Assembly: GCF_001570405.1 (NCBI RefSeq)
Contig: NZ_BBYM01000009.1
Coordinates: forward strand, 1 to 64,000
DNA length: 64,000 nt
Direction: 5' to 3'
Origin: Microtetraspora niveoalba
GTDB taxonomy: Bacteria > Actinomycetota > Actinomycetes > Streptosporangiales > Streptosporangiaceae
Below, piece after piece: positions 10,005-48,106 of this stretch; within the stretch, counting starts at the first letter, position 1; each line of letters starts with the position of its first letter. The notes under the pieces are model-generated. The model made no database searches. It was not told where the DNA came from and worked only from the letters and a program-made list of their open reading frames with translations. The position numbers and the translations under genes are program-made.

Positions 10005-10013
10005 CCGCCGGGC

Positions 10014-10565: not shown

Positions 10566-10567
10566 AC

Positions 10568-11155: not shown

Positions 11156-11160
11156 CAACG

Positions 11161-11387: not shown

Positions 11388-11393
11388 CGGGAT

Positions 11394-11774
11394 GTGACCC
11401 AAGACATCGCCCTTGACCAGGGATGGGCTCCTGCGGCGTGCACCCTGCCCACGGCCGAGCAGCCGCTTCGGGTGGCCGAGTTCGACGCCTTGTTCGCCGA
11501 GGCGGTCCGGGCGGTGCGGCGCCCCGAGCGTGGGCGGCTGCGGCTGGAGCTCGTCTTCAGCCCGGACACCGCCGCGCGGGCCGCCGAGCTGGCGGCGCGG
11601 GAGAACGGCTGCTGCTCGTTCTTCACCTTCACCCTCACCGTCGCCGACGGCGCTCTGGCGCTGGAGGTGGCGGTTCCGCCGCAGTACATCGAAGTGCTGG
11701 ACGCACTGGCCGAGCGGTCGACGCGCGGTGACCTCAACGGCCCGGTCGCCGCGGCGGGACGATGCCAGGCGTGA
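11394..11774 (+). CDS. Small protein with CC motif in a MerR-controlled operon
   Basis: A 126-residue protein of no family I can name. Residues 65-100 (RAAELAARENGCCSFFTFTLTV) contain a vicinal Cys pair that could bind a soft metal. The GTG at 11394 is preferred because it falls six bases after the promoter -10 element; no ribosome-binding site is visible. The gene overlaps the MerR gene by 13 bp. Context suggests a role in metal or thiol stress, but this is inference. Confidence 0.7.
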   Translation: MTQDIALDQGWAPAACTLPTAEQPLRVAEFDALFAEAVRAVRRPERGRLRLELVFSPDTAARAAELAARENGCCSFFTFTLTVADGALALEVAVPPQYIEVLDALAERSTRGDLNGPVAAAGRCQA

Positions 11775-12229
11775 GAAAGGACATCGACGGGCCGTACCTG
11801 CGCAGCGGGCAGGTGGCCGCGCGGGCCGGAGTCAACCCGCAGACCCTGCGCTACTACGAACGCCGCGGGCTGATCGCCGAACCGGCGCGCAGCCCGGGCG
11901 GGCACCGCGCCTACCCGCCCGAGACCGTCACCCTGTTGACGGTGATCAAAGCCGCCCAGCGGCTCGGCTTCACCCTGGAGGAGGTGGCGGAGCTCCTCGA
12001 CACCGGACGGCGCGGCCATCCCACCCCGGACCTGCGCGCCCGCGCCCAAGTCAAGATCGCCGAAGTGGAGGCGAAGATCACCGACCTGACCACCATCCGT
12101 GCGGCACTGGGACAGGTGGTCGACGCCGGCTGCGACAGCCTGACCCACTGCACCTGCCCCGACTGCCCGTTGCCCTTCGCCGACCTGGCCGAAGGCGGCC
12201 GTGCCCCCGACATCCCCCAGGAGGGCTGA
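11762..12229 (+). CDS. MerR-family metal-responsive regulator
   Basis: This 155-residue protein has the MerR winged helix-turn-helix (RSGQVAARAGVNPQTLRYYERRGLI), a dimerisation coiled coil and a C-terminal Cys-rich loop (AGCDSLTHCTCPDCPLPF). The loop resembles the metal-binding region of mercury/zinc-type MerR proteins, with CDSL...CPDCPLP spacing like Gram-positive MerR. It is translationally overlapped with the CC-motif gene and probably activates the promoter at 11356-11387. Which metal it senses cannot be read with certainty; no mercuric reductase or transporter is next to it. Confidence 0.85.
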   Translation: MPGVRKDIDGPYLRSGQVAARAGVNPQTLRYYERRGLIAEPARSPGGHRAYPPETVTLLTVIKAAQRLGFTLEEVAELLDTGRRGHPTPDLRARAQVKIAEVEAKITDLTTIRAALGQVVDAGCDSLTHCTCPDCPLPFADLAEGGRAPDIPQEG

Positions 12230-12273
12230 GCGGAGCGGGCACCCGCTACTGACGAGTGCCGTGTCCGGCCGGG

Positions 12274-13866
12274 TCAGGTGCCGGCGATGGCCTTGTCGGA
12301 CCGCAGGGTCTCGGTGCGGGTCCGAAGCATCGTGCGGAGCGAGGCCGCTTCCGCATCGATCGCGGTGGCGTCGGCTCGGGCGTTGAGCTTGTAGGAATTC
12401 ACGATGCCGTCCAGGAGCGTCGAGGCGGTTCCGCCGGCGAGGAGCTTCTGGAAGAGGGCGCGGTACTGCTCCTCGTAGATCTTCTTGAAGGCGGGTGTCT
12501 TCAGGAACCTCTCCTTCAGCGCGTGGCCCGTGCGCGGCCCGCCGGGCCCGTCGGGCCCCCCGCCGCCGGGCCCCCCGCCGCCGGGCCCCCCACCGTCGGG
12601 ATCGCCGCCGCCGGGGCCGGCCCCGCCCGGCGGTTGGAAGCCTTCGGGCGGTTCGAACCCCTGGGGCGGCTGTCCCTGCTGCCCCGCCCGCCCGTCGGGG
12701 CGCTGTCCGTCCGGTCGTGCGCCTCCCCGGCCGAAGCCCATCCCCACCGTGTCGTTCACGCCCACGGTGGCGTCGCCGCTGAAGGCCAGGTTGAGGTCCC
12801 AGGAGATCACCCGCAACCTCTTCGTGCCCAGGTCGTACCACATGTAGTAGTTGCGGCCGGGCCCGCTCATGTCGTCGAAGTTCACCATGATGTTCTGCAG
12901 CGCCAGGTAGCGGCCGAACGCCTCGACGTCCAGTCGCTCGGCCAGCCCCGAGGCGAACTCCTCGTCGGAGGACTCCTCCACCCACCTGACCAGGTCGATG
13001 AGCGGCTGGAGGTCCCGCTCGCCGCGCTTGTTGATCTGCTTGAAGTCGGCGGTGTACTCGGTCTGGTCCTCGCCCTTGTAGGCGAAGGTGCTGCCGGCCA
13101 GCGACTTGTAGAGGACGCCGTCGCCCAGGCCCGCGGCGTATCCCTCGTCGAGGTACTCGACCAGGAGGCGGGGCGTCGAGGAGCGGCCGTTGACGGTGAA
13201 GGCGCTGTAGGCGAAGCGCTGTGTGGGCTCGCCCGCCGCGCCGACCAGCGCGATGCCCAGCGCCTCGTTGAGCAGCGTCGCCGACCCCATGGCCGCCGGC
13301 CGTACGGCGACCTGGCTGTGGCCCTGGTATCGGCGGCCTTCCACGAACTCGTCGAAGCTGATCAGCCACGGCAGGTTCTCCGGCTCCTCCGCCTTCAGCG
13401 ACGCCCCGAACCTGCCGCCCATCCCGCCCCCGGGACGCTGCCCGTCCGCCGCCTGGCCGCCGCGGCGTCCCATGCGGGATTCGCCCTTCCACGTCAGCCC
13501 CGACAGCGTGGAGTTGCCCTTGAGCCGGACACCGACGCTCGGGATCGTGGTCCCGTCGATGGTCACGTCGGCCTCGACGTACTTCTTCTCACCGTCCTTG
13601 AAGTACTCGTTCAGCATGTCCTGGTACGCCTCGTCCCTGAACGTGACCGTCACCTCGTGCGGGACCGAGGTGTCGAACAGGTCGACCGTCCCGGTCAGGT
13701 TCCGCGTCGCGGTCTCGGCCGAGGCGGTGCGCACGGTGGTCACGTACGGGCGGATCGTCCCGCTGCCGAAGACACCCGCGCAGATCGCGAGGAACGCCGC
13801 GCAGGTCGCGACCAGCTTCCAGTTCTGCCGGAGCCTGACCGGGATCCGGTGCTTGAGATGCGCCAT
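12274..13866 (-). CDS. CotH-family protein (spore-coat kinase fold), membrane anchored
   Basis: A 530-residue protein with one N-terminal membrane segment (KLVATCAAFLAICAGVFG) and an extracytoplasmic CotH domain: VGVRLKGNSTLSG, LLVEYLDEGYAAGLGDGVLYK, and the kinase-like end YMWYDLGTKRLRVISWDLNLAF carrying the metal-binding Asp residues. A Gly/Pro-rich insert near residues 390-450 separates the core from the C-terminus. CotH of Bacillus is a protein kinase; activity here is unproven. It is the last gene of a VTC-DUF4956-CotH set, 6 bp after DUF4956. Confidence 0.85.
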   Translation of the reverse strand: MAHLKHRIPVRLRQNWKLVATCAAFLAICAGVFGSGTIRPYVTTVRTASAETATRNLTGTVDLFDTSVPHEVTVTFRDEAYQDMLNEYFKDGEKKYVEADVTIDGTTIPSVGVRLKGNSTLSGLTWKGESRMGRRGGQAADGQRPGGGMGGRFGASLKAEEPENLPWLISFDEFVEGRRYQGHSQVAVRPAAMGSATLLNEALGIALVGAAGEPTQRFAYSAFTVNGRSSTPRLLVEYLDEGYAAGLGDGVLYKSLAGSTFAYKGEDQTEYTADFKQINKRGERDLQPLIDLVRWVEESSDEEFASGLAERLDVEAFGRYLALQNIMVNFDDMSGPGRNYYMWYDLGTKRLRVISWDLNLAFSGDATVGVNDTVGMGFGRGGARPDGQRPDGRAGQQGQPPQGFEPPEGFQPPGGAGPGGGDPDGGGPGGGGPGGGGPDGPGGPRTGHALKERFLKTPAFKKIYEEQYRALFQKLLAGGTASTLLDGIVNSYKLNARADATAIDAEAASLRTMLRTRTETLRSDKAIAGT

Positions 13867-36869: not shown

Positions 36870-37305
36870 GTTGCGCACCCCCTCCGGGGATGAGACGAAC
36901 ACCTTCCATTCTAAGTCCGCTACTTCCCCCGAATTCCGATTTATGCATTTAAGTCCGGATGGATTCCAGCGGATTTCCAGCGAGGTCGATGGTGTTTCTG
37001 AGGTGTTTGTGACCGCAGGGTCCTCCGGGGTGACGCCGGGGCGCGGGAAGGGCGCGGCGTGTCCCCTGTGTTTCAGCTAGTTTCAGGCGGCGGGCGCCCG
37101 GCCCGGGACGCCCGTCTCGGCCGGGCGGGACGGGTGATCCGCTGCCCGAACTGGGGGAATGTCCCTTGGTCCCGGGATGGTGTGAATTTTCGTGTGATTT
37201 CCGGGGTAATAGCCGCATCGCGCAGTGTGGCCGACAATTCACGTGCGCGTGGCGCTGCCGTATGGTGGTTGTGGGAGCGCTCCCACAGCTGCTAAGGAGG
37301 CGGAC
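36870..37305. other. Long upstream region of the anti-sigma-type ATPase gene
   Basis: No convincing gene is seen in these 436 bp. Positions 36900-36960 are AT-rich and could hold the SPW gene promoter. A weak stress-type promoter, ATTT (37186-37189) N14 GGGTA (37204-37208), reads rightward toward the ATPase gene. The main feature is the palindrome at 37270-37287. Confidence 0.5.
37270..37287. promoter_or_regulatory. Perfect 18-bp CebR-type palindrome
   Basis: TGTGGGAGCGCTCCCACA is a perfect palindrome containing the exact 14-bp CebR consensus TGGGAGCGCTCCCA. It sits seven bases before the AAGGAGG ribosome-binding site of the ATPase gene, where a bound repressor would block transcription. It matches the consensus better than the sites before cebE in this same window. 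Confidence 0.8.
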
Positions 37306-37800
37306 GTGGTCCTTCCCTTCGTGATGGAGCCGCTGGAAGCGGCGTCGCCGCGCACGGCGGAGTGCCTGCTACCCGCGACGGGCCCCGGCGTCGCCGCCGC
37401 CCGCGCGCTCGTCCGGCGCGAGCTTCCCCTGTGGGGAGCCCGGTCGCTGGTCGACGACTGCGAGCTCATCGTCGGCGAGCTCGCCGCCAACGTCGTACGG
37501 CACGGCGGCTCCGCGTTCACCCTGCGCCTGGCCGGCGACGGCCGCCTGGTCCGCGGCGAGGTCTTCGACCCGGGCGAGGGCGTCCCCCGGCCGCGGGCCT
37601 GCGGCCCCGACGCGACCGGCGGGCGTGGGTTGCTCATCGTCGGCGGCCTCGCCCTCGACTGGGGCGTCAGGCCGGGCCGCTACGGGAAGACGGTGTGGTT
37701 CGTCGTCGGCGACGCCGACCCCGCCCCGGGTCACCCGGTCCTGCGGGACCGTTTCCCGCTGGCCGACCGGACCCGCCCCCGCGCGCTCGGGCTCCCCTGA
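37306..37800 (+). CDS. RsbW-like ATP-binding protein (anti-sigma/regulatory kinase type)
   Basis: A 164-residue HATPase_c_2 protein. The N box is DDCELIVGELAANVVRHGG, the G1 box DPGEGVPRPRAC and the G2 box GGRGLLIVGGLALDWGVR, as in stand-alone regulatory ATPases of actinobacteria. AGGAGG lies 5 nt before GTG 37306. Relatives act as anti-sigma factors or serine kinases in partner switching, or pair with XRE/DUF397 genes. No anti-anti-sigma or sigma gene is adjacent, but the following 11 kb carry stress-type promoters. It lies behind a CebR-type operator. Confidence 0.85.
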   Translation: MVLPFVMEPLEAASPRTAECLLPATGPGVAAARALVRRELPLWGARSLVDDCELIVGELAANVVRHGGSAFTLRLAGDGRLVRGEVFDPGEGVPRPRACGPDATGGRGLLIVGGLALDWGVRPGRYGKTVWFVVGDADPAPGHPVLRDRFPLADRTRPRALGLP

Positions 37801-38405: not shown

Positions 38406-38696
38406 TCACCCCCGCGACTCCGGGCCGACGCCGAGCCGCCGCTGGCGGCGCAGTGCGAGGGCGATGTCGGCGACGACGATGATCGCGACGAAGCCGGCCG
38501 CGCCGAACACCCACCAGACACGGGTCAGCGCACCGGTGAGCGCGACGCCGAAGCACAGCACCAGGAGAAACGCGCCGATCAGGATGTGGATGACGTCGCG
38601 CGGCGTCGCGGGCACGCGGGTGATCCCCTTCTCGGACTCCTGTTCCGGGGTGAAGCGGGGTTCCTTGGGATAGCTGCTGCGGGGTTCCTCGGACAT
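38406..38696 (-). CDS. Small two-helix membrane protein
   Basis: A 96-residue protein with a charged N-terminus (SEEPRSSYPKEPRFTPEQESEKG) and two membrane segments (DVIHILIGAFLLVLCFGVALTGAL and VWWVFGAAGFVAIIVVADIALAL). ATG 38696 begins 9 bp after the hldE stop, so it is probably in the same transcript. I do not recognise a named family with certainty. Confidence 0.7.
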   Translation of the reverse strand: MSEEPRSSYPKEPRFTPEQESEKGITRVPATPRDVIHILIGAFLLVLCFGVALTGALTRVWWVFGAAGFVAIIVVADIALALRRQRRLGVGPESRG

Positions 38697-38705
38697 GCGG
38701 CCCAC

Positions 38706-40124
38706 CTACCCTCGGATCCGGTTGACTATCGCGGTCGTGGAGCGGTCCTGGACGTAGCCGAGCACCCGCACCTCGCCGCCCAGCTCCCTGACCAGCTCCG
38801 CCTCCGGCAGCAGGTCGGGGTGGTAGTCGCCGCCCTTCACGTAGACGTCCGGGCGGACCAGGCGCAGCAGCTCCTCGGGCGTGTCGCCGTCGAAGACCGT
38901 GATGTGGTCGACGCAGCCGAGCGCGGCCAGCACCGCCACCCGGTCCTCGCACGAGTTGATCGGCCGGTCGGGCCCCTTCAGACGGGCCACGCTGTCGTCG
39001 CCGTTGACGGCCACGACCAGCACGTCGCCGAGCCCCGCCGCCTCCTCCAGGCAGGCCACGTGCCCCCGGTGCAGCACGTCGAAGCAGCCGTTGGTGAAGA
39101 CGACCCGCCGGCCGAGCGCCCGCTCCTCGGCGACCAGCTCGGCCAGCCGCGCGGCGGACACCGCGCCGCGCCGCCGCAGGGCGCGGAGCAGGTCGTCCCG
39201 GCAGCAGACCGCCGTGCCGGGGCGGCGCACCACGACCCCGGCCGCGGCCTGCGCGAGGTCGGCGGCGATCTCCTCGCCCGCCCCCGCGGCGAGGGCGAGG
39301 GCGAACGCCGCCGTGAACGTGTCCCCGGCGCCGGTGCTCATCTGGTCGGGCGCCGGCGTCGCCCGGGTCCGGTACGGCTCCCGCCCCCTCCGGTGCAGCA
39401 GCGCGCCCTCGCCGTCGAGGGTCGTGACGACGCGCCGGGCGCCGGTCTCGTCGAGCAGCCGCTGGGAGCGGGCGGTGAGAAACGCGACACGGTCCCCCTC
39501 CTGCTCCGGCTCCCCGAGCAGCCGCAGCACCTCGCGGAAGTTGGGCAGCACGGCGGCGGGGCGGCACTCGCGCCAGGGGCCGACCTCGTGGGCGTCGACC
39601 ACGAGGTCGAGCCGCAGGTCGAGCAGCGCCCGCCGTACGGCCGGGGTGCAGACCCCGGCGCCGTAGTCGCAGACGACGACCACGTCCGCGCCGGGCCCCA
39701 GCTCGCGAATCCGCTCGATGAGCTCGCGTTCCGCGCTTTCGGGGATCGGGGACCTGTCCTCCTCGTCGTAGCGGGCGACGATCTGGCTTCCGGTCACGAC
39801 GCGGCGCTTGACGGCCGTCCGCCGGTTCCGGCAGATCGCCAGGCCGTCCACGCCGTGGCTCATGAGGGACGCGTTGAGTGTGGCGCCCGCCGGGTCCGCG
39901 CCGGTGACGCCCAGCATGTGGACGTGGGCGCCGAGGGCGGCGAGGTTCACCGCGGCGTTCGCCGCGCCGCCGGGCTGGTCGTCGATCGCCTCCAGGGTCA
40001 CGACGGGAACCGGTGCCTCCTGGGCCATCCGGGTGCTGCTTCCCCGGAGCCAGGAGTCGAGCATGACGTCCCCGACCACCACGGCGGTCAGATCACCGAA
40101 TCGGGCCACGATGTCTTCCGTCAT
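38706..40124 (-). CDS. hldE: Bifunctional heptose kinase/nucleotidyltransferase (HldE-like)
   Basis: A 472-residue fusion. Residues 1-310 are a PfkB-type kinase (VVVGDVMLDSWLRGSS, QPGGAANAAVNLAALGA, STGAGDTFTAAFALALAAG). Residues 335-472 are a cytidylyltransferase-fold domain (VVFTNGCFDVLHRGHVACLEEA, VKGGDYHPDLLPE, DRSTTAIVNRI). In Gram-negatives HldE makes ADP-heptose for lipopolysaccharide. Here it faces a family 9 glycosyltransferase across a 129-bp divergent promoter, so a heptose-containing glycan is plausible. A stress-type promoter lies 10 nt before its start. Confidence 0.88.
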   Translation of the reverse strand: MTEDIVARFGDLTAVVVGDVMLDSWLRGSSTRMAQEAPVPVVTLEAIDDQPGGAANAAVNLAALGAHVHMLGVTGADPAGATLNASLMSHGVDGLAICRNRRTAVKRRVVTGSQIVARYDEEDRSPIPESAERELIERIRELGPGADVVVVCDYGAGVCTPAVRRALLDLRLDLVVDAHEVGPWRECRPAAVLPNFREVLRLLGEPEQEGDRVAFLTARSQRLLDETGARRVVTTLDGEGALLHRRGREPYRTRATPAPDQMSTGAGDTFTAAFALALAAGAGEEIAADLAQAAAGVVVRRPGTAVCCRDDLLRALRRRGAVSAARLAELVAEERALGRRVVFTNGCFDVLHRGHVACLEEAAGLGDVLVVAVNGDDSVARLKGPDRPINSCEDRVAVLAALGCVDHITVFDGDTPEELLRLVRPDVYVKGGDYHPDLLPEAELVRELGGEVRVLGYVQDRSTTAIVNRIRG

Positions 40125-40134
40125 GAGAAGCGGC

Positions 40135-40158
40135 TACCCCGCGAAGTGGAGTGAAAAC
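40135..40158 (-). promoter_or_regulatory. Stress-sigma-type promoter of hldE
   Basis: On the minus strand GTTT (40158-40155), 15 bp, GGGTA (40139-40135), then exactly 10 nt to the ATG at 40124. This matches the actinobacterial SigB/SigF-like consensus GTTT-N14-16-GGGTA. Transcription would start within a few bases of the ATG. Confidence 0.7.
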
Positions 40159-40195
40159 AGCGTGAAACCGGGATAAAACAGGGGAAAGCGGGATG

Positions 40196-40219
40196 GTTTG
40201 TCCCTTTGTGGTCCGGGTA
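40196..40219 (+). promoter_or_regulatory. Stress-sigma-type promoter of the glycosyltransferase gene
   Basis: GTTT (40196-40199), 15 bp, GGGTA (40215-40219). It is divergent from the hldE promoter, so both genes would respond to the same sigma factor. Confidence 0.7.
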
Positions 40220-40230
40220 GCCGCCTCCCC

Positions 40231-40257
40231 GTGTCCCAGCCCGGAATGTCCCCATGA
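40231..40257 (+). CDS. Possible 8-codon leader peptide before the glycosyltransferase gene
   Basis: GTG 40231 begins 11 nt after the GGGTA box and opens an 8-codon frame (VSQPGMSP) whose TGA overlaps the ATG of the glycosyltransferase gene as ATGA. Translation of the leader could deliver ribosomes to that start, which has no clear ribosome-binding site. Purely positional evidence. Confidence 0.3.
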   Translation: MSQPGMSP

Positions 40258-41303
40258 CCAGCCTCCTCGTCGACGGCGTCGACCGGATCGCGGTGCTCCG
40301 GGCCAACGCCCTCGGCGACTTCCTCCTCACGCTGCCCGCCCTGGAGGCGCTGAAGCGGGCCTATCCGGCGGCGCGGCTGACCCTGCTCGGCCGCGACTGG
40401 CACGCCCGGTTCCTGCGCGGCCGTCCCGGACCCGTTGACGACGTCGTCGCGCTGCCGCCGATCTCCGGCGTCTCCGCCCCGCCCGGCGAGGGAGCCGCCC
40501 CCGGCCACGTCTACGACGAGCTGCGCGGACGCTTCGACCTCGCCGTCCAGATGCACGGCGGAGGCCGCAACTCCAACCCGTTCCTGCGGCGGCTGGGCGC
40601 CCGGCTGACCGTGGGACTCCGCACGCCGGACGCCGAGCCGCTCGACCGCTGGGTGCCGTACGTCCACTACCAGCACGAGACGCTCCGCTATCTGGAGGTG
40701 GCCCGGCTGGTCGGCGCGGACGGCTGCTCCCTGGAGCCCCGGGTGGCGGTCACCCGGGCCGACTGGGCCGAGCTGAGCAGGGTGGTCGGCCCGCTGCCGC
40801 GCGGCGTGGTCGCCGTCCACCCGGGCGCGAACGACGCGCGCCGCCGGTGGCCTCCCGAGCGCTTCGCCGCCGTCGCCGACCGGCTCGGCCGTCCCGTCGT
40901 CGTCACCGGCACCGGGCCGGAACGCGGCATCGTCGAACGGGTCGTGCGCGAGATGCGCCGCCCCGCCGTCCCCGTCGTCGGCGAGTTGTCGCTCGGCGGG
41001 CTCGCCGCGCTGTACGCCGCCTGCGACCTGCTGATCGCCAACGACACCGGACCGCGCCACCTGGCCGCCGCCACCGGCACGCCCACCGTCGCCGTCTTCC
41101 TGTGCGGGAACCTGGTCAACGCCGGGCCGCTCTCCCGCAGCCACCACCGGCCGCTGATCTCGTGGACCACCGCCTGCCCCGTCTGCGGCGCCGACGGGAC
41201 CGACCCGTACGGCGAGCCCTGCGGGCACCGCGTTTCATGGGTGGGCGACGTGACCGTGGACGACGTGCTCGACCAGGCCCGCGACCTCCTGGGATGGCGC
41301 TGA
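40254..41303 (+). CDS. Family 9 glycosyltransferase (heptosyltransferase-like)
   Basis: A 349-residue GT-B enzyme of the ADP-heptose:LPS heptosyltransferase family. N-terminal motif IAVLRANALGDFLLTLPALEALKRAYP, nucleotide-binding VAVHPGANDARRRWPPERFAAVADRL, and LIANDTGPRHLAAATGTPTVAVF. Near the C-terminus is a Cys-containing segment (CPVCGADGTDPYGEPCGHR). With HldE opposite, transfer of a heptose to a cell-surface or secreted glycan is likely. It is followed after 1 bp by the topoisomerase gene. Confidence 0.85.
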   Translation: MTSLLVDGVDRIAVLRANALGDFLLTLPALEALKRAYPAARLTLLGRDWHARFLRGRPGPVDDVVALPPISGVSAPPGEGAAPGHVYDELRGRFDLAVQMHGGGRNSNPFLRRLGARLTVGLRTPDAEPLDRWVPYVHYQHETLRYLEVARLVGADGCSLEPRVAVTRADWAELSRVVGPLPRGVVAVHPGANDARRRWPPERFAAVADRLGRPVVVTGTGPERGIVERVVREMRRPAVPVVGELSLGGLAALYAACDLLIANDTGPRHLAAATGTPTVAVFLCGNLVNAGPLSRSHHRPLISWTTACPVCGADGTDPYGEPCGHRVSWVGDVTVDDVLDQARDLLGWR

Positions 41304-41304
41304 G

Positions 41305-42330
41305 GTGGCGGGGGAGACCGACCTCGCGAAGCTGCTGGAGCTCGAACTGCGGACCAGCCATCCCGACGAGCCCGGGATCCGGAGGCGGCGGCGCGGGCGG
41401 GGCTTCCGGTACACCTGGGCCTCCGGCCGTCCGGTGAAGGACGCGGCCGCGCTGCGGCGGATCAGGTCGCTCGCCATCCCGCCCGCGTGGATCGACGTGT
41501 GGATCTGCGCCGACCCCCGCGGGCACATCCAGGCGGTCGGCACCGACTCGGCCGGGCGGCGGCAGTACCGCTACCACGAGGCGTGGCGGGCCCAGCAGGA
41601 CCGGGCCAAGTTCGACCACGTCCTGGAGGTCGCCGAGCGGCTCGCCGCCTTCCGCCGCCGCGTGGCCGAGGACCTGCGCGGCGAGGGGCTGACCCGCGAG
41701 CGGGTCCTCGCCGCGGCGGCCCGGATGCTCGACACGGGCTTCTTCCGGGTCGGCGGCGAGGAGTACACCGACTCCTACGGCCTGGCCACGCTGCGCACCT
41801 CCCACGTCCGATGCGCCGGAGGCCGGGTCCTCTGCGCGTACACCGCCAAGGGCGGCAAGCGGCGCGAGCAGGTGCTGGCCGACGCCGAGGTGTGCGAGGT
41901 GATCCAGTCCCTGCTCGGCCACAAAGGCGAGCTGCTGCGCTACCGCTCCGACGGGGACTGGGTGGACGTGCGCAGCGACGACATCAACGCGTACCTCAAG
42001 GAGGCGTTCGGCACCGACGTCTCCGCCAAGGACTTCCGCACCTGGCACGCCACCGTGCTGGCCGCGGTCGGCCTGTCGGTGTCCCGCCGGGTGCGCGGCA
42101 CCATGGGCAGGCGCCGGGCGGTCTCCCGCGTCATGGCCGAGGTCGCCGAATATCTCGGCAACACCCCCGCCGTGGCCCGCGCGTCGTACGTGGACCCCCG
42201 GCTCATCGAGTTGTACGAGCGGGGGCGGTTCATCCCGCTCGAACGGCTCGGCGCGGACATCGAGGAGGGCGGGCTGGCCACCCACGGCGCGGCGGAGAAG
42301 GCCGTCATCACGCTGCTGCGCGGTGTCTGA
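41305..42330 (+). CDS. DNA topoisomerase IB (poxvirus-like)
   Basis: A 341-residue tyrosine topoisomerase. Features include IRSLAIPPAWIDVWICADPRGHIQAVGTD, DTGFFRVGGEEYTDSYGLATLR, the catalytic-region RTWHATVLAAV and the nucleophile Tyr295 in VARASYVDP. It relaxes supercoils by a 3'-phosphotyrosine intermediate. The GTG start follows the glycosyltransferase stop by 1 bp, so it shares that stress-type transcript. Confidence 0.9.
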   Translation: MAGETDLAKLLELELRTSHPDEPGIRRRRRGRGFRYTWASGRPVKDAAALRRIRSLAIPPAWIDVWICADPRGHIQAVGTDSAGRRQYRYHEAWRAQQDRAKFDHVLEVAERLAAFRRRVAEDLRGEGLTRERVLAAAARMLDTGFFRVGGEEYTDSYGLATLRTSHVRCAGGRVLCAYTAKGGKRREQVLADAEVCEVIQSLLGHKGELLRYRSDGDWVDVRSDDINAYLKEAFGTDVSAKDFRTWHATVLAAVGLSVSRRVRGTMGRRRAVSRVMAEVAEYLGNTPAVARASYVDPRLIELYERGRFIPLERLGADIEEGGLATHGAAEKAVITLLRGV

Positions 42331-42622
42331 TTGCCTCGCTTCGCTCGGCGGGCTCGGGGCGCCCTCAGGCGATGTCTTCCCTCGTCGCTCGGACTGCGTT
42401 TGATTGCCTCGCTCCGCTCGGCGGTTCGGGGCGCCCGAAGTCGGCTCGTGCCCTCGTCACGTCCTCGCTCCTTCGTCGCTGCGGGCGTTCCTCGGTTACT
42501 TCACCGCCGCGCCCCTCACGTTCCTCGGCTCACTCGCTCGTGTTGTCGGGTTTGCCTTCGTCACGCTCCTCGCTCCTTCGTCGCTGCGGGCGTCCCTCGG
42601 TCCAGACACCGCCGCGCCCCTC
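42328..42622. repeat. Two nested pairs of direct repeats in an intergenic gap
   Basis: A 37-bp element (TGATTGCCTCGCTTCGCTCG and following, 42328-42364) recurs at 42401-42436. A second element of about 67 bp (CCTCGTCACGTCCTCGCTCC and following, 42452-42518) recurs at 42555-42622 at roughly 85-90 percent identity. No gene is visible between 42331 and 42741. Confidence 0.75.
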
Positions 42623-42685
42623 GCGTGACGGCCGGCCGCCGTGATGATCGACGAGGGCTCGGGGGGTGATGGCCGCAAACCCTGA

Positions 42686-42709
42686 GTTTCGCGGCGGATT
42701 GGGCGGGCA
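42686..42709 (+). promoter_or_regulatory. Stress-sigma-type promoter of the BON gene
   Basis: GTTT (42686-42689), 15 bp, GGGCA (42705-42709), then a 32-nt leader with a strong GGAGGGGG site before the ATG at 42742. Confidence 0.6.
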
Positions 42710-42741
42710 GGCGCTGGAGAGTCCGATCGGAGGGGGAATCC

Positions 42742-42987
42742 ATGGACGCGCCGCACTATGTCGCGGCCCGCGTGCAACGGGCGCTGGCGGAGGACGAGCG
42801 GACCGTCGAGCTGGGCATCCGGGTCGACGTGCGGGGAAATCAGATCTTTCTCCGGGGCCGGGTCAGCGCTCCGGAGCGCCGGCTCCTGATCGAGGACGTC
42901 GCCCGTGAGGCCGCGCCGGGCCTTTCCGTGCACAACGAGATCACCCTGGTGGAGGTCCGCGAACCGGGAGAGGAGGAGCATCTGTGA
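42742..42987 (+). CDS. BON-domain protein
   Basis: An 81-residue protein consisting of a single BON domain (VAARVQRALAEDERTVELGIRVDVRGNQIFLRGRVSAPERRLLIEDVAREAAPGLSVHNEITL). There is no signal peptide. BON domains bind membranes or lipids and occur in osmotic-stress proteins. It overlaps the phosphoesterase gene by 4 bp. Confidence 0.88.
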   Translation: MDAPHYVAARVQRALAEDERTVELGIRVDVRGNQIFLRGRVSAPERRLLIEDVAREAAPGLSVHNEITLVEVREPGEEEHL

Positions 42988-43706
42988 CGGAGACGCGAAT
43001 CGCGGCCGTGGCGGACATCCACATGGGAGAGGATCTGCGGGGGCACTTCCGCCCCAAACTGCACGGCATCGAGAACCGGGCCGAGGTCCTGCTGGTGGGC
43101 GGCGACCTGACCCGGCACGGGACCGTGGCCGAGGGCAGGGTCGTCGCCGACGAGCTGCGCGACCTGCCGATCCCGGTGATCGCGGTGCTCGGCAACCACG
43201 ACTACCACTCCGACGCGGAGCAGGCGATCACCGCGATCCTGCGCGACGCCGGGGTGACCGTGCTCGACGACGAGGCGACCATCCTCTCCCTGGACGGCAC
43301 GACCCTGGGGGTGGTGGGCGGCAAGGGCTTCGGGGGAGGGTTCGCCGGGAAGTGCGCGAGCGAGTTCGGCGAGCCGGAGACCAAGGCGTTCGTCCGGCAC
43401 ACCCGGCAGATCGCCGACCGCTGGCGGCGGGCGCTGAAGGAGCTGGACACCGACCACCGGATCGTCCTGAGCCACTATTCGCCGGTCAAGGACACCCTGA
43501 TGGGGGAGCCCACCGAGATCTATCCGTTCCTGGGCAGCTACCTGCTCGCCGAGGCGGCCGACGAGGAGGGCGCCGACCTGATCGTCCACGGCCACGCGCA
43601 CCTCGGGACGGAGAAGGGGCTCACGCCGGGCGGGATCCAGGTGCGGAACGTCGCCGTCCCCGTGATCGGCAGCGCGTACACGGTCTACTGCCTCAACGGC
43701 GCGTGA
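42984..43706 (+). CDS. Metallophosphoesterase
   Basis: A 240-residue calcineurin-like phosphoesterase with the full set of metal ligands: AVADIHMGE, LLVGGDLTRHG, VLGNHDYHS, VLSHYSP and VHGHAHLG. The GTG start overlaps the BON stop (GTGA). Substrate is unknown; co-expression with BON suggests a stress role. Confidence 0.88.
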   Translation: MTETRIAAVADIHMGEDLRGHFRPKLHGIENRAEVLLVGGDLTRHGTVAEGRVVADELRDLPIPVIAVLGNHDYHSDAEQAITAILRDAGVTVLDDEATILSLDGTTLGVVGGKGFGGGFAGKCASEFGEPETKAFVRHTRQIADRWRRALKELDTDHRIVLSHYSPVKDTLMGEPTEIYPFLGSYLLAEAADEEGADLIVHGHAHLGTEKGLTPGGIQVRNVAVPVIGSAYTVYCLNGA

Positions 43707-43780
43707 CCCCCGCGGTTCCCCGGTTCCGCGCGATCCCCGCCGCGTTTCCGTACACGGCTTTCGTACGCGTCCCCGGGCAC

Positions 43781-43818
43781 GGGACGGCGGCCGGACTCCC
43801 GCCGGCCGCCGTTGTCCC
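43781..43818. terminator. Bidirectional terminator hairpin
   Basis: CGGCGGCCGG (43785-43794) pairs with CCGGCCGCCG (43802-43811), extended by GGGAC/GTCCC. It separates the phosphoesterase from the convergent GPGG gene. Confidence 0.65.
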
Positions 43819-43831
43819 ATGCTCGCCCCGG

Positions 43832-43981
43832 CTATGGATGGAAGATGCTGACGCCGCCGGGACCGACGAGGAACCCGATGACGATGAGGACGATTCCCCA
43901 GAGGATGTCCCGGCGCGCGAGGATCACATAGATCCCGGAGATGACCAGCACTACGGCGATGATCCAGAGCAAAGTAGCCAT
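43832..43981 (-). CDS. GPGG-motif small transmembrane protein
   Basis: A 49-residue protein from ATG 43981 with GGGGAGG 3 nt upstream. Two hydrophobic segments (LLWIIAVVLVISGIYVILA and WGIVLIVIGFLVG) are separated by the short loop RRDIL, and the chain ends GPGGVSIFHP, the diagnostic motif of this actinobacterial small-protein family. Function is unknown. A stress-type promoter precedes it. Confidence 0.85.
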   Translation of the reverse strand: MATLLWIIAVVLVISGIYVILARRDILWGIVLIVIGFLVGPGGVSIFHP

Positions 43982-43991
43982 GGACCTCCCC

Positions 43992-44015
43992 TGCCCTGGC
44001 GATTGTCTGGATAAC
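43992..44015 (-). promoter_or_regulatory. Stress-sigma-type promoter of the GPGG gene
   Basis: On the minus strand GTTA (44015-44012), 15 bp, GGGCA (43996-43992), then exactly 10 nt to the ATG. The -35 differs from GTTT at one base. Confidence 0.55.
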
Positions 44016-44059
44016 TCCCGGTCTTCGGTGAATTTGCGTCGCCATTTGGAAGGGGTGGC

Positions 44060-44082
44060 GTTTGGTCCGCCCTGTTCGGGCA
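44060..44082 (+). promoter_or_regulatory. Stress-sigma-type promoter of the F420 oxidoreductase gene
   Basis: GTTT (44060-44063), 14 bp, GGGCA (44078-44082), then exactly 10 nt to ATG 44093. Confidence 0.6.
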
Positions 44083-44092
44083 GGTGGCGGCT

Positions 44093-45064
44093 ATGACCAA
44101 GTTCGGATATTTCCTCTCATGCGAGGAACACGACCCGAAGGAACTCGTACGGCAGGCGAAACTCGCCGAGCAGTCCGGATTCGAGGGGCTGTGGATCTCC
44201 GACCACTATCACCCCTGGCTGGACGAGCAGGGGCAGAGCGCGTTCGTCTGGTCGGTCATCGGCGCGCTGTCGCAGGTGACGTCGCTGCCGGTGACGACCG
44301 CCGTGACGTGCCCGATCATCCGCATCCATCCGGCGATCATCGCGCAGGCCGCGGCCACCGCCCAGGTGATGCTCGACGGCCGGTTCCGGCTGGGCGTCGG
44401 CACCGGCGAGAACCTCAACGAGCACATCCTCGGCGACCAGTGGCCACCGGCGTCGGAGCGGCGGCGGATGCTGGAGGAGGCGATCGAGGTCATCCGCGAG
44501 CTGTGGACGGGCAAGCTGGTCAGCTTCCGCGGCGAGTTCTACGACGTGGACACCGCCCGCCTGTACACGCTGCCGGACACGCCGCCGCCGATCTACATCT
44601 CGGGCTTCGGGCCGAAGTCCGTCGAGCTGGCCGGGCGGATCGGCGACGGGTACATCTCCACCGCGCCCACTCCCGACCTGATCCGGGCGTTCCACGCCGC
44701 CGGGGGCGAGGGCAAGCCCAGCGCGGCCGGGGTGAAGGTGTGCTGGTCCGCGGACGCGGCACGGGCCCGCCACAACGCCCACCGGTTGTGGCCGACGAAC
44801 GGGATCCCCGGAGAGGCGTCCCAGTTGCTGCCGCTGCCCCGGCACTTCGAGCAGCTCTCCCAGCTCGTCACCGAGGAGGCGGTGGCCGGCAAGCTCGCCT
44901 GCGGACCCTCGGCCGAGGACCACATCGCGGTCATCCGCGAGTACGTCGAGGCCGGGTACGACGAGATCTACATCCAGCAGATCGGCCCCGAGCAGGACGG
45001 CTTCTTCTCCTTCTACGCCGAAGAGGTCCTGCCCCGCTGCCGGACCGCCCACGCGGTCCGGTGA
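44093..45064 (+). CDS. F420-dependent LLM-class oxidoreductase (TIGR03557/G6PDH-like)
   Basis: A 323-residue luciferase-like TIM barrel. It starts FGYFLSCEEHDPKELVRQAKLAEQSGFEGLWISDHYHPW, the typical entry of F420-dependent glucose-6-phosphate dehydrogenase relatives, with GVGTGENLNEHILGDQWP and YISGFGPKSVELAGRIGDGYIS. Coenzyme F420 is the expected cofactor; the substrate is not certain. ATG 44093 is chosen over GTG 44084 because the promoter places the transcript start close to it. Confidence 0.85.
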   Translation: MTKFGYFLSCEEHDPKELVRQAKLAEQSGFEGLWISDHYHPWLDEQGQSAFVWSVIGALSQVTSLPVTTAVTCPIIRIHPAIIAQAAATAQVMLDGRFRLGVGTGENLNEHILGDQWPPASERRRMLEEAIEVIRELWTGKLVSFRGEFYDVDTARLYTLPDTPPPIYISGFGPKSVELAGRIGDGYISTAPTPDLIRAFHAAGGEGKPSAAGVKVCWSADAARARHNAHRLWPTNGIPGEASQLLPLPRHFEQLSQLVTEEAVAGKLACGPSAEDHIAVIREYVEAGYDEIYIQQIGPEQDGFFSFYAEEVLPRCRTAHAVR

Positions 45065-45080
45065 CGGATGACGCGGGTGC

Positions 45081-45596
45081 TCAGCCGGAGCCGTCCTCGC
45101 CGGTGTCCTTCATCATCCGGCTGTAGGCGAGCTGGAGCCAGTCGGAGGCCGCGACGGCCGTCATCGTCGCCCCCGCCAGCCGGGTCGCGCGCGGGGCGAA
45201 GACCATGCCCGCCGCGTACGCCGTGGCGACCCACTGGGAGAGGCAGAACGGGCAGCTCACCAGCTCGCCGAGGGCGTGGCGCATCCCGGAGCCGCGCACC
45301 TCCTCGTGCAGCTCGGACGGGCCGGCGACTCCGACATACTTTGTAAAGGGCGCGCGCAGGGGGCTCACCACGGGGTCCTTGGCGAGTGTGCGGGACAGGC
45401 GATGGGTGAACATCCCCATCAATCCCAGGTCGAGCAGGCCGATCTTCTCGGGCGCCCGGCGACCGGTCAGCCGGGCGACGGCGGCCACCGCGCCCACGAC
45501 GCACCCGTACACGAGCATGATCCGGCCGTACGACGCCAGTGGGCGGCGGGCCGAGCCTTCGTATGCCTGTGCGATTTCCTTGAGAGTTTCGGTCAT
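45081..45596 (-). CDS. DUF1360 membrane protein
   Basis: A 171-residue protein with three or four hydrophobic segments and the DUF1360 motif ELVSCPFCLSQWVATAYAAG. Homologues are found near stress and sporulation genes in Bacillus (for example YngL-type proteins) and actinobacteria. The ATG lies 10 nt after a GGGTA box. It converges on the F420 oxidoreductase gene with a 16-bp gap. Confidence 0.85.
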   Translation of the reverse strand: MTETLKEIAQAYEGSARRPLASYGRIMLVYGCVVGAVAAVARLTGRRAPEKIGLLDLGLMGMFTHRLSRTLAKDPVVSPLRAPFTKYVGVAGPSELHEEVRGSGMRHALGELVSCPFCLSQWVATAYAAGMVFAPRATRLAGATMTAVAASDWLQLAYSRMMKDTGEDGSG

Positions 45597-45606
45597 CGAA
45601 ACCGCC

Positions 45607-45630
45607 TACCCGGGATTGTTTGCGGCGAAC
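45607..45630 (-). promoter_or_regulatory. Stress-sigma-type promoter of DUF1360 gene
   Basis: On the minus strand GTTC (45630-45627), 15 bp, GGGTA (45611-45607), exactly 10 nt to the ATG. It is interlocked with the divergent promoter at 45618-45641. Confidence 0.65.
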
Positions 45631-45641
45631 TCGCAGGGGCA
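45618..45641 (+). promoter_or_regulatory. Stress-sigma-type promoter of the nucleotidyltransferase-like gene
   Basis: GTTT (45618-45621), 15 bp, GGGCA (45637-45641), exactly 10 nt to GTG 45652. It physically overlaps the opposing DUF1360 promoter. Confidence 0.6.
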
Positions 45642-45651
45642 GACGAGGTGA

Positions 45652-46248
45652 GTGGGCAGTCACACTCACGCGGTCACCGACGCCATCCTCGACACCCTCA
45701 AGCGCGCGGGCGCGGGCCTGCGCGACGCGGGGGTGCGCTTCGCGCTGGCCGGCGGCTGCGCCGGATACGCCAGGGGGGCCGCGCCCTCCCTGCACGACGT
45801 CGACTTCGCGCTCGTCGAGGAAGACGTCGGCCTCGCGCTCAAGACCCTGGAGGACCTGGGGTTCCGCACCGTCAGGCCCCCGGAGGACTGGCTGGTCAAG
45901 GCGTACGACGAGAGCGGCGTGCTGGTGGATCTGATCTTCTCGCTGGCCAACCGGCCGGTGACCGAGGAGATGATCGCCCGCGCCGACCTGATCAACGTCG
46001 CGGCGCTCAACCTGAAGGTCCTGGAGGCGACCGACCTCGTGATCTCGTGGATCATGCCGATGTCGGAGCACAGTTGCGACTACGGGGCGATGTTGCCGAT
46101 GGTCCGGGCGATGCGCGAGCAGGTCGACTGGGACCGGGTGGCCGCGGTCGCCGCGCCGTCGCCGTACGCGTCGACGTTCGTGACGCTGCTCGAACGGCTG
46201 GACGTCATCCGCCCGGTCACGCCCTCGGCGGGCGAGCCCTGGCCCTGA
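45652..46248 (+). CDS. Nucleotidyltransferase-like protein
   Basis: A 198-residue protein. Residues 25-75 (GVRFALAGGCAGYARGAAPSLHDVDFALVEEDVGLALKTL) show a nucleotidyltransferase-fold GG..Y..G and HDVDF pair of acidic residues, and VLVDLIF supplies a possible third Asp. Such folds occur in AbiEii/MNT-type toxins and in housekeeping transferases. There is no partner antitoxin gene. Expression is probably from the stress-type promoter upstream. Confidence 0.65.
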   Translation: MGSHTHAVTDAILDTLKRAGAGLRDAGVRFALAGGCAGYARGAAPSLHDVDFALVEEDVGLALKTLEDLGFRTVRPPEDWLVKAYDESGVLVDLIFSLANRPVTEEMIARADLINVAALNLKVLEATDLVISWIMPMSEHSCDYGAMLPMVRAMREQVDWDRVAAVAAPSPYASTFVTLLERLDVIRPVTPSAGEPWP

Positions 46249-46298
46249 ACTCCCTTTGGCTTTTCGTCGATGTGGCCTTTGCTTGAGAGTCTTTACCC

Positions 46299-47630
46299 AT
46301 GGTTCACATCGACACAGGAGGCTCCCCGAGAGCCGGCCGGGCGTCCGCCGCGGTCGCGCTCTGCCTCGCGCTCGTCGCGGGGTGCGGCACCTTATCCGGC
46401 CGGCCCGGCGCGGACGGCGATCCGCCCGAGGCCACGGGGCCGCATCGCGTGACCGCCGCCCCAGAGACCCCGGCGGACGCCGGTGACGGCACGGCGGACA
46501 GTCCGGAAACCGCCGCGCAGCGACGGGTGGCGCTGCGCCAGGCGTGGCAGGTGACGCAGGTGGACGAGGACCCGCGACACTACGCCCTCGCCTCCGACGG
46601 CACCCGCGTCATCGCCCTCCGGCGGGAGATCGGCGAGGCCTCGGACGCGGACATCAGCGGGTACGACGGCGCCGACGGGAAGAAGCTGTGGACCCGGCGC
46701 CTCCAGTGGGTGGGGAGCAACACGCCGGTGGCGGCTGGCCAGACCGTCGTCATCCCGTCCGGGGGAGACTCGACCGCCGACGTCAAGGACCCGATGGAGT
46801 ACGTCGCCCTCGACTCGGCCACCGGGGCCGAGCGGTGGCGGGTCAAGGTCACGCAGCGGGCGCTGATGCGCGACAACCTCAGCCTGCCCGGCCCGCCGGC
46901 CGGCGCCGTGCTCGACGGCGTCTTCTACTACAGCGACGGCCCCAAGCTCGTCGGAGTCGACCTGGTCACCGGCAAGGTCAAGTACCGGCGTACCAGCAAG
47001 ACGCACCTGGCCGTCGCCGGGCCGGTCGTGGCGGGCGACCGGATCGCCGTCATCGTCAAACCCAACCCGTTCACGCACAACAAAGGCGTCCAGGGCAACG
47101 TGCGCGGCCTCGCGATCCTCGGCAAGGACCTCGCCCCCGTCCACCAGCTCGACTTCCCCAAGTTCGCCGAGGTCGACGAGATCGTGACGAGCGGGGACAT
47201 CGTCGTCGCGGCGCAGAGCGGCGGGAGCTCGGCGCGGGTGTGGGGCATCGACGCCGGCGCCGGCAAGGCGCTCTGGGACTGGCCGCTCCCCGACAAGCAG
47301 CACGTCGGCCTGCCGGTCGGCGGGGTGTTGCCGCTGGTCGACGAGAGCGTCAACCACAAGCCCCAGTTCGTCGGACACGACATCCTCACCGGGAAGAAGC
47401 TCTGGACCCTCGCGCCCAGGCAGTCCGAGGAGGCCGTCGACGGCGACCGGGCGATGGGCGTCGCCGACGGCACGCTGTTCGGCCTCGGCCACGGCGTCGA
47501 GATCGTGGACACCGCGACCGGTAAGGCGATCTTCGGGCAGCAGTTCACGCCGCGCGGCGGGGGCCTGGTCGTCGCGGCCGCCGGCCGGATCGTGATCTAC
47601 AACCACGACGGTCTCATGGGGTTCGACTGA
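46299..47630 (+). CDS. PQQ-like beta-propeller lipoprotein
   Basis: A 443-residue secreted lipoprotein: signal segment AAVALCLALVAGC supplies the lipobox Cys, then a Thr/Ala/Pro-rich spacer to residue 75, then several propeller blades with the PQQ-type motif (YDGADGKKLWTRRL, LDSATGAERWRVKV, VDLVTGKVKYRR, GIDAGAGKALWDWPL, HDILTGKKLWTLA). Likely a scaffold or binding protein on the cell surface. No ligand is evident. Confidence 0.85.
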   Translation: MVHIDTGGSPRAGRASAAVALCLALVAGCGTLSGRPGADGDPPEATGPHRVTAAPETPADAGDGTADSPETAAQRRVALRQAWQVTQVDEDPRHYALASDGTRVIALRREIGEASDADISGYDGADGKKLWTRRLQWVGSNTPVAAGQTVVIPSGGDSTADVKDPMEYVALDSATGAERWRVKVTQRALMRDNLSLPGPPAGAVLDGVFYYSDGPKLVGVDLVTGKVKYRRTSKTHLAVAGPVVAGDRIAVIVKPNPFTHNKGVQGNVRGLAILGKDLAPVHQLDFPKFAEVDEIVTSGDIVVAAQSGGSSARVWGIDAGAGKALWDWPLPDKQHVGLPVGGVLPLVDESVNHKPQFVGHDILTGKKLWTLAPRQSEEAVDGDRAMGVADGTLFGLGHGVEIVDTATGKAIFGQQFTPRGGGLVVAAAGRIVIYNHDGLMGFD

Positions 47631-47643
47631 CCCGTCCGCGCAC

Positions 47644-47678
47644 GACGAGGGCCGTGCCTTCGCGGCACGGCCCTCGTC
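47644..47678. terminator. Bidirectional terminator hairpin
   Basis: GACGAGGGCCGTGCC and its exact complement form a 15-bp stem with a 5-nt TTCGC loop, between the convergent lipoprotein and PRC-barrel genes. Confidence 0.85.
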
Positions 47679-47696
47679 TCCGTCCTCACCTGGGGA

Positions 47697-48053
47697 TCAG
47701 GGCGCGTAGGGGAAGCGCCCGTAGTAGTCGCCGAGCCGGTCGCGGTACGTCGACTCCTTGTACGCCGTCTCGTCGAACTCGGGGGCGTTCTTGATCTCCT
47801 GCTTCGTCCTGCTGACGAAGACCCGCTTCTCCTGGGGGTCGATCAAAGTGATCACGCCCGCCGGCAGCATGACCTTCTTACCGAAGATCCACGGGCCGGT
47901 GTCGACTACCACGTAGCTGTCGCCGACCTCGTAGGTGGCGTCGTCCACGGATCCGATCTTTCCGTCCGTGGCCTCGACGTCGTAACCCGCGACGTCGAGG
48001 TCCTGCCCGGTGCTGTCCAGGCTGTCCCGGTACGTCCAGAGATCCGGTGTCAT
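47697..48053 (-). CDS. PRC-barrel domain protein
   Basis: A 118-residue protein with an N-terminal PRC barrel (DVAGYDVEATDGKIGSVDDATYEVGDSYVVVDTGPWIFGKKVMLPAGVI) followed by a charged C-terminus ending GRFPYAP. AAAGGAG lies 8 nt before the ATG. Homologues are common in actinobacterial stress regulons. A GTTT-N14-GGGTA promoter lies 30 nt upstream. Confidence 0.88.
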   Translation of the reverse strand: MTPDLWTYRDSLDSTGQDLDVAGYDVEATDGKIGSVDDATYEVGDSYVVVDTGPWIFGKKVMLPAGVITLIDPQEKRVFVSRTKQEIKNAPEFDETAYKESTYRDRLGDYYGRFPYAP

Positions 48054-48083
48054 GTGTTCGTCTCCTTTCGTCGCACGTCCGAC

Positions 48084-48106
48084 TACCCGATGAGACGGCC
48101 TGAAAC
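48084..48106 (-). promoter_or_regulatory. Stress-sigma-type promoter of the PRC-barrel gene
   Basis: On the minus strand GTTT (48106-48103), 14 bp, GGGTA (48088-48084), followed by a 30-nt leader with a ribosome-binding site. Confidence 0.7.

Follow-up and report, generated by a model that had tools for sequence, protein, structure and literature searches.

What connects the genes of a short island in the Microtetraspora niveoalba genome, where near-identical promoter-like boxes recur before gene after gene and many start codons lie at one and the same distance behind them? The island analysed comprises 8,051 bp of a 64,000-nucleotide stretch of DNA (the window; G000:C9:1-64000, part of an 8.47-Mb genome; handles in G, C and L denote genomes, contigs and loci). 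An initial annotation had placed eight promoters here, before hldE, a GT9 glycosyltransferase gene and genes labelled BON, GPGG, F420 enzyme, DUF1360, nucleotidyltransferase-like (NTase) and PRC-barrel, and had viewed them as one stress module read by SigB/SigF-type sigma factors. We put a probability of roughly 0.8 on the explanation, taken as a whole, that the island is a real cluster of SigB/SigF-type promoters with leaderless geometry, two leadered genes and a coupled short open reading frame (mini-ORF). The parts are of known kinds; what is new is their density, the conserved distance, a ninth promoter lying over the hldE stop codon, the putative coupled mini-ORF before GT9, an overlap of 13 bp between two divergent promoters, and a gene-bound choice of T or C in the -10 element.

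A dense cluster of promoter boxes

Each of the eight -35/-10 pairs was found, by direct reading, exactly where the initial annotation had placed it (Table 1), with spacers of N14 or N15. The -35 element is GTTT at six of the eight sites, GTTA at GPGG and GTTC at DUF1360, and the -10 element and the spacing fit at all eight. The base 3' of GGGYA (GGG[TC]A) is a G at every site, giving the hexamer GGGTAG at hldE, GT9, DUF1360 and PRC and GGGCAG at BON, GPGG, F420 and NTase.

The island holds eight occurrences of the motif GTT[TCA]-N14/15-GGG[TC]A, as against one in the remaining 56 kb of the window. Twenty stretches from elsewhere in the genome, 400 kb in all, yield 15, a background rate at which the island should hold 0.30 (Poisson P = 1.3e-9 for eight). 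Randomised sequence likewise falls far short of the real count, in line with what had been predicted: over 300 dinucleotide shuffles of the island, the matches averaged 0.28 and never exceeded 4. The stricter pattern GTTTN{14,15}GGGYAG has 27 exact matches across the 8.47 Mb as against eight for the reversed pattern, and six of the 27 fall within the island.

Start codons at a fixed distance

We define d as the count of nucleotides from GGGYA to the start codon. It is exactly 10 at hldE, GPGG, F420, DUF1360 and NTase, the very five sites for which that distance had been reported, and 32 at BON, 30 at PRC and 34 at GT9. At d = 10 the A of the ATG is the tenth base after the hexamer. The background stretches contain 20 boxes with a -35-like element, and not one of these is followed by a plausible start at d = 9-14. 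The start codon is ATG in five of the six short-gap genes (a small gene 3' of hldE included) and GTG in NTase; the mini-ORF also opens with GTG.

These distances can be set beside mapped promoters of SigB homologues in Streptomyces coelicolor, where transcription starts 8 (five), 9 (four) or 10 (four) nt after the hexamer at 13 of 13 GGGYA promoters (median 9), and 3 to 11 nt after it over all 24 promoters (again median 9), the last printed letter of Table 2 in that paper being read as the start site (PMC8346170; papers are cited by PubMed Central accession). Given offsets of 8-10 nt, a start codon at d = 10 would make the transcript leaderless or leave a leader of 0-2 nt (up to 3-4 nt at d = 12). 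The leaders of 2-5 nt suggested previously presume a housekeeping geometry and, on these offsets, would shrink to about 0-2 nt; the accompanying view that very short leaders are part of the design is supported by conservation.

We propose that the promoters of the island are read by a general-stress sigma factor, or by several, and that RsbW-like partners probably restrain these factors. RNA polymerase carrying such a sigma factor would start 8-10 nt after the GGGYAN hexamer, which is where hldE, GPGG, F420, DUF1360, NTase and the small gene 3' of hldE have their start codons; the mRNA would begin at or within about two bases of the ATG or GTG and would be translated without a Shine-Dalgarno site. 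BON and 'PRC' would instead have leaders of about 20 nt with a Shine-Dalgarno site, and GT9 would probably be reached via a leaderless 8-codon mini-ORF and ATGA coupling.

Conservation of the distance rule across genomes

Most of the gene set occurs together in G002, G003, G075, G070, G044 and G045, and G062 and G068 have a part of the set; the G045 stretch is without a GT9 or F420 orthologue, and G003 and G044 are without a Top1B match. At orthologous genes both promoter elements and the distance are kept and the spacers diverge. We tabulated 51 sites in eight genomes (GGGYA boxes with a -35 of GTT, GATG or GTAA at 14 or 15 nt, protein identity at least 40%). For hldE, GPGG, F420, DUF1360 and NTase, all 36 tabulated sites, the window's five included, have a start at d = 10-12 (10 in 27, 11 in six and 12 in three), 33 of them directly; in the other three the protein alignment begins within the gene, and a start in frame lies at 10 or 12. 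Taken gene by gene, d is 10-11 for GPGG (8/8 genomes), 10-11 for F420 (5/5 genomes with a GTT -35; L141 has ATTA as its -35 and d = 11), 10-12 for DUF1360 (7/7) and 10-11 for NTase (8/8, once via an in-frame start). No NTase promoter was seen before a 50%-identical homologue in L144.

The longer form is conserved as well. PRC keeps d = 29-31 at 5/5 tabulated sites (window, L142, L143, L129 and L134), with no clear match in L128 and L141. For BON, d is 31-32 in four genomes (window, L142, L143 and L128) with a longer leader in G070, but 12 in L141 (G044) and 10 in L134 (G062); no matching BON promoter was found in L129, L131 and L144. Thus, the same gene can take either form in different genera. 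The two forms also differ in what lies ahead of the start codon: Shine-Dalgarno-like tetramers (AGGA, GGAG or GAGG) occur in 7 of the 36 short gaps as against 5/5 PRC leaders and 4/5 long BON leaders, the BON leader of the window holding GGAGGGGG. Within the short gaps the tetramer is absent from hldE (8/8), F420 (5/5) and DUF1360 (7/7) and present at GPGG in 4/8 and NTase in 3/8, the window being among both.

The divergent DUF1360 and NTase promoters have both of their -35 elements within the 13 bp GTTTGCGGCGAAC, hence two polymerases could hardly bind at once. This arrangement recurs in six relatives: three (L142, L128 and L129) have the identical 13 bp, the others (L143, L130 and L141) a variant.

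The distance also recurs beyond these orthologues. A motif-plus-ATG pattern gave 305 matches in 21 genomes as against 124 for the reversed control. Among the matches listed, 140 in seven genomes (140 of 150 rows, three G017 rows with d = 7, 8 and 9 and seven G000 rows being omitted), 40 have d = 10-12 where a flat spread over 1-31 would give 13.5; the excess holds for GGGTA (23/63, P = 9e-9) and for GGGCA (17/77, P = 0.001). Some genomes lack the peak, but it recurs in other families and in one further order. That order is represented by G019, a genome of the same class, from which 12 of the 14 sites listed with d = 9-13, and so selected on distance, were read: 11 of the 12 stand before plausible open frames at d = 10-13, an F420-enzyme-like and an NDH-like gene (both at 10-11 nt) among them, and the remaining site makes a better leadered promoter (34 nt). 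In that genome, L186 (G019:C1) holds a second dense group of such promoters, with other genes: four boxes in about 6 kb (6825-12769) and a fifth, with GTG at 11 nt, whose position 12769 sets it back to back with the box at 12765.

hldE and the putative mini-ORF before GT9

The HldE protein of the window is 92% identical to that of Microtetraspora fusca. A GGGYA lies 10-12 nt before an in-frame hldE start in 15 of the 18 genomes read (window included), in some with an off-consensus -35. In a survey of public contigs, for which 79 of 80 loci passed the filters, GGGYA was found 9-13 nt before a possible hldE start in 7 of 17 actinobacterial loci and in 0 of 62 loci of other phyla; two of the seven have merely a GNNT-like -35 (GCTT at 15 in L033, GTGT at 16 in L042). 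Near hldE of Kibdelosporangium persicum (L043, 13731), an F420-enzyme-like gene, judged by eye, has GATT-GGGTA 10 nt before its ATG.

The GT9 promoter is present in both other Microtetraspora genomes with GT9 (G001 has no GT9 match, which limits the comparison to three genomes of the genus), and none of the three has a Shine-Dalgarno-like tetramer before the gene. GTG 40231 was considered as the start of GT9 itself and rejected, as it lies in the wrong reading frame. It opens instead a putative leaderless mini-ORF whose TGA overlaps the GT9 ATG at 40254 (ATGA). All three genus members have GTG TCC CAG at its start and CCA TGA at its end, with 8 codons in the window, 21 in M. fusca (L142) and 16 in G003 (L143), the differences being multiples of 3. 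Coupling of GT9 to the mini-ORF is suggested by this frame. Outside the genus the GT9 frame itself starts at d = 12 in G079, 11 in G006 and 13 in G078. G075 and G044 have a GTTT-N15-GGGTAA box 118 and about 97 nt before the GT9 start, respectively, with no start codon at d = 10-12; no box with a -35 was found before GT9 in G070 and G068, and no start at d = 10-12 in L132, L138, L139 and L140.

A ninth box over the hldE stop codon

The hldE frame ends GCG ATA GTC AAC CGG ATC CGA GGG TAG, followed by 9 nt and the ATG of the small gene. Its last two codons form a ninth -10 hexamer that contains the stop codon, and the next ATG lies at d = 10. In ten island genes ATA is one of 99 Ile codons and TAG one of 10 stops. 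The pattern GCG ATA GTS ... GGG TAG is kept in seven genomes (window included), and in L141 (G044) the ninth box is retained though the hldE frame stops earlier. Eight islands that lack the small gene showed no ninth promoter (L137, one of the eight, has GGG TAG by itself), and none was seen in L131 or L134 either, both of which have a 45-50% match to the small protein.

Sigma factor genes and the question of one module

Two genes of the genome match the SigBFG family of sigma factors (TIGR02980) over its cut-off, both with Sigma70_r2, r3 and r4 domains, and five further full-length matches fall below it. The best lies directly 3' of a gene for an RsbW-like ATPase (PF13581, slightly below its cut-off). 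The SigB/SigF-type class assigned in the initial annotation is supported: the boxes fit the mapped S. coelicolor consensus, they are kept at orthologues across genera, and sigma genes of the SigB/F/G type are present. A scan of seven loci of about 3.7 kb found no box directly before a sigma gene. Near the island, window positions 37225-37800 (+) encode an HATPase_c_2 protein (RsbW/SpoIIAB-like, PF13581), a possible anti-sigma factor. Just 3' of a SigBFG sigma gene in L109 (G000:C17), an NDH-like oxidoreductase gene has a box with a 13-nt spacer (2698-2730) 10 nt ahead of its ATG; the NDH-like gene in G019 shares this geometry (d = 11).

Outside the island, plausible genome-wide sites precede genes for a Dps-like ferritin, hemerythrin, acyl-CoA dehydrogenase, a GlpD-like protein, alcohol dehydrogenase and an epimerase, as well as Holin-X, DUF4142, a RecQ-like helicase, and a GT2 gene followed by a GT9 paralogue. 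Five of the 21 exact matches outside the island have a start at d = 10-12 (L008, L009, L012, L020 and L023).

That the island may form one coordinately induced stress module, as first proposed, is a plausible reading. Joint induction is hinted at indirectly by the occurrence of this motif before the Dps-like and hemerythrin genes. In Frankia under salt, a SigF-domain sigma factor and an ADP-heptose:LPS heptosyltransferase rise (PMC5563000), which by analogy would fit a stress module but is no proof. The claim is weakened because several sigma paralogues could read the boxes and because each gene tends to keep its own -10 subtype across genera. The fourth base of the -10 is C at GPGG (8/8), NTase (8/8), BON (7/7) and F420 (5/5), and T at DUF1360 (7/7), PRC (5/5), GT9 (3/3) and hldE (7/8).

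Weighing the alternatives

Could the boxes have arisen by chance or composition? GGGCA is frequent in DNA of 71% G+C, and the reversed-pattern control predicts that about eight of the 27 exact genome-wide matches are of this kind; surely some of the 21 outside the island are. Within the island, however, density, shuffles and cross-genus conservation speak against it, and the background stretches, shuffles and conservation rule out a chance origin of the island boxes, to which we give practically no credence. It is also very improbable that the boxes are operators of a DNA-binding regulator, for although an operator too could consist of two conserved parts at a constant spacing from genes, this motif is directional, non-palindromic and in agreement with a known sigma consensus, and the start codons sit where a transcript would begin. 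A closer rival accepts the same promoters but gives them true leaders of 2-5 nt, with initiation 5-8 nt after the box. Initiation 6-7 nt after the -10 hexamer is usual for a housekeeping sigma factor, and in the window genome a Shine-Dalgarno-like tetramer precedes the GPGG and NTase starts. Yet a leader of 2-5 nt cannot fit a working Shine-Dalgarno site, the 9 nt between the hexamer and the hldE ATG hold one purine (the third base), and the S. coelicolor SigB-homologue starts lie 8-10 nt after GGGYAN in 13/13 cases; we regard this rival as unlikely, and favour leaderless starts.

A different question is whether several SigB-family sigma factors share the boxes unequally, with GGGTAG and GGGCAG genes forming partly separate regulons. 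The fourth -10 base goes with the gene and is conserved between genera, the genome offers two SigBFG genes over the cut-off and five full-length matches below it, nine homologues in S. coelicolor cross-recognise promoters (PMC8346170), and the GGGCAT -10 of dpsA has been likened to SigH targets (PMC3184153). On the other hand, the T/C choice might tune strength alone; the S. coelicolor groups differ only in the -35, a more conserved GTTT for SigF/H/N and a looser GNNT for SigB/L/M (PMC8346170), and the GTTT-rich island as a whole resembles the former group. We consider such a division a real possibility, a little short of even odds.

Several points count against a cluster of leaderless SigB/SigF-type promoters. 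The start-site offset is borrowed from Streptomyces, and with its median of 9 a gene at d = 10 would have a leader of 1 nt. The GPGG and NTase tetramers lie between box and start, where they would matter if transcription began further upstream. Start codons were assigned as the first plausible ATG or GTG together with protein alignment, and the site counts come from related sequences, which are not independent and overstate the number of events. The distance peak is absent in G018 (1 of 21 listed matches at d = 10-12), and three genomes (G007, G010 and G014) show no excess of the motif-plus-ATG pattern over the reversed control. At hldE, the geometry is missing in three of the 18 genomes read (L133, L135 and L136), and 10 of the 17 actinobacterial public loci lack a GGGYA at 9-13 nt from a possible start. 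In the ninth promoter the -35 (GATA) departs from the consensus.

Features of the island and related heptose loci

The coordinates of the features are collected in Table 1. Two gene labels of the initial annotation have weak support: for the 'PRC-barrel' protein neither Pfam (at E<=0.01) nor NCBIfam gave a match, and the GPGG protein matches DUF5699 slightly below the cut-off (27.8 vs 29 bits). The BON and metallophosphoesterase genes overlap by 4 nt at 42984-42987 (GTGA), which suggests coupled translation.

Table 1. Promoters and genes of the island, with window coordinates
Feature	Coordinates	Strand	Details
Small protein, 96 aa, hydrophobic stretches, behind ninth promoter	38406..38696	-	ORF, ATG start chosen; no Pfam match
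Ninth promoter, in 3' end of hldE	38706..38730	-	-35-like GATA 38730-38727; -10 GGGTAG 38711-38706; ATG 38696, d = 10
hldE, bifunctional heptose kinase/adenylyltransferase	38706..40124	-	TIGR02199 over cut-off; NF008454 and TIGR02198 below theirs
hldE promoter	40134..40158	-	-35 GTTT 40158-40155; -10 GGGTAG 40139-40134; ATG 40124, d = 10
GT9 promoter	40196..40220	+	-35 GTTT; -10 GGGTAG 40215-40220
Putative leaderless mini-ORF	40231..40257	+	GTG TCC CAG CCC GGA ATG TCC CCA TGA; d = 11
GT9 glycosyltransferase (heptosyltransferase-like)	40254..41303	+	PF01075
Top1B, 3' of GT9	41305..42330	+	PF01028, PF21338
BON promoter	42686..42710	+	-35 GTTT; -10 GGGCAG 42705-42710; ATG 42742, d = 32, leadered
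BON-domain protein	42742..42987	+	PF04972
Metallophosphoesterase	42984..43706	+	PF00149
GPGG small membrane protein, 49 aa	43832..43981	-	DUF5699, 27.8 bits, cut-off 29
GPGG promoter	43991..44015	-	-35 GTTA; -10 GGGCAG 43996-43991; ATG 43981, d = 10
F420 enzyme promoter	44060..44083	+	-35 GTTT; -10 GGGCAG 44078-44083; ATG 44093, d = 10
F420-dependent LLM oxidoreductase	44093..45064	+	TIGR03557 over cut-off
DUF1360 protein	45081..45596	-	PF07098
DUF1360 promoter	45606..45630	-	-35 GTTC; -10 GGGTAG 45611-45606; ATG 45596, d = 10
13 bp GTTTGCGGCGAAC holding -35s of divergent DUF1360 and NTase promoters	45618..45630	.	Sequence reading
NTase promoter	45618..45642	+	-35 GTTT; -10 GGGCAG 45637-45642; GTG 45652, d = 10
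Nucleotidyltransferase-like (NTase) protein	45652..46248	+	PF14907
'PRC-barrel' protein (name from initial annotation), 118 aa	47697..48053	-	ORF; no Pfam or NCBIfam match
'PRC-barrel' gene promoter	48083..48106	-	-35 GTTT; -10 GGGTAG 48088-48083; ATG 48053, d = 30, leadered

Heptose-type genes also occur elsewhere in the genome. A second heptose-type locus, L180 (G000:C13, from 7705), has a GT2 gene and, behind it, a GT9 gene whose product is 65% identical to that of the island; the GT2 promoter is of the leaderless type, with d = 11 here and 12 in M. fusca (L181). At G000:C21:54093-58701 a gmhA-like gene (below the family cut-off) lies between two weak GT9 matches; this locus is a likely source of heptose phosphate. 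Before the gmhA-like genes and the C21 GT9 paralogues (four loci: L183, L184, L177 and L179), no convincing promoter of the 10-12 or ~30 nt form was found, and two matches there, with a -35 of GATC or GGTG, were rejected as they looked like coding DNA.

Implications and relation to known systems

It is inviting to generalise from the island to a design rule, although we would sooner doubt than rely on it. The near-fixed initiation offset of SigB/SigF sigma factors would allow mostly two gene forms, one with the start at d = 10-12 and one with it about 20 nt further on behind a Shine-Dalgarno site. The regulon would be biased towards leaderless mRNA, linking stress transcription with leaderless translation, and new leaderless genes or mini-ORFs could arise by an ATG or GTG placed at that spot, even where the -10 contains the stop codon of the preceding gene. 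If the proposed explanation is true, a start codon 10-12 nt after GGGYA would predict members of the stress regulon and correct gene starts in many actinomycetes, the island would offer a test bed for whether stress favours leaderless translation, and HldE with GT9 would point to ADP-heptose sugars as a stress product in Gram-positive actinomycetes.

Among the matches listed in literature searches on leaderless mRNA with alternative sigma factors, DUF1360/PRC-barrel, Microtetraspora sigma factors and actinomycete HldE, the titles and abstract beginnings contain no description of the island or of a fixed GGGYA-to-start distance. The corresponding entries on HldE in actinomycetes likewise hold no study of a stress role for ADP-heptose beyond the Frankia salt data.

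The closest known systems are the regulons of the S. coelicolor SigB homologues, with which the island shares a GTTT/GNNT-like -35 and a GGG(T/C)A -10; there the sixth -10 base is G, T, C or A and the spacers are N12-15 (PMC8346170). Unlike those regulons, the island has nine promoters in about 10 kb, most of them joined to a start codon at a distance kept across genera, its sigma dependence being predicted from sequence. The mycobacterial SigF regulon (GGWWT-N16-17-GGGTAY; PMC7693655, PMC6448022) has the same -10. In S. coelicolor sspA, also with a SigF-dependent promoter, the transcription start is the translation start, but sspA is a single sporulation gene with GTGT-N16-GGTTAC (PMC4282423). 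As in the leaderless mRNAs of other actinomycetes, where 22.2% in S. avermitilis have a leader under 9 nt (PMC8780764) and 24% in M. smegmatis one of 5 nt or less (PMC6448022), the start codon in the island stands at or next to the expected start of the transcript, without a Shine-Dalgarno-like tetramer in most short gaps. For those leaderless mRNAs, however, the main -10 motif reported is TANNNT or ANNNT, whereas the geometry of the island belongs to a predicted stress-sigma promoter.

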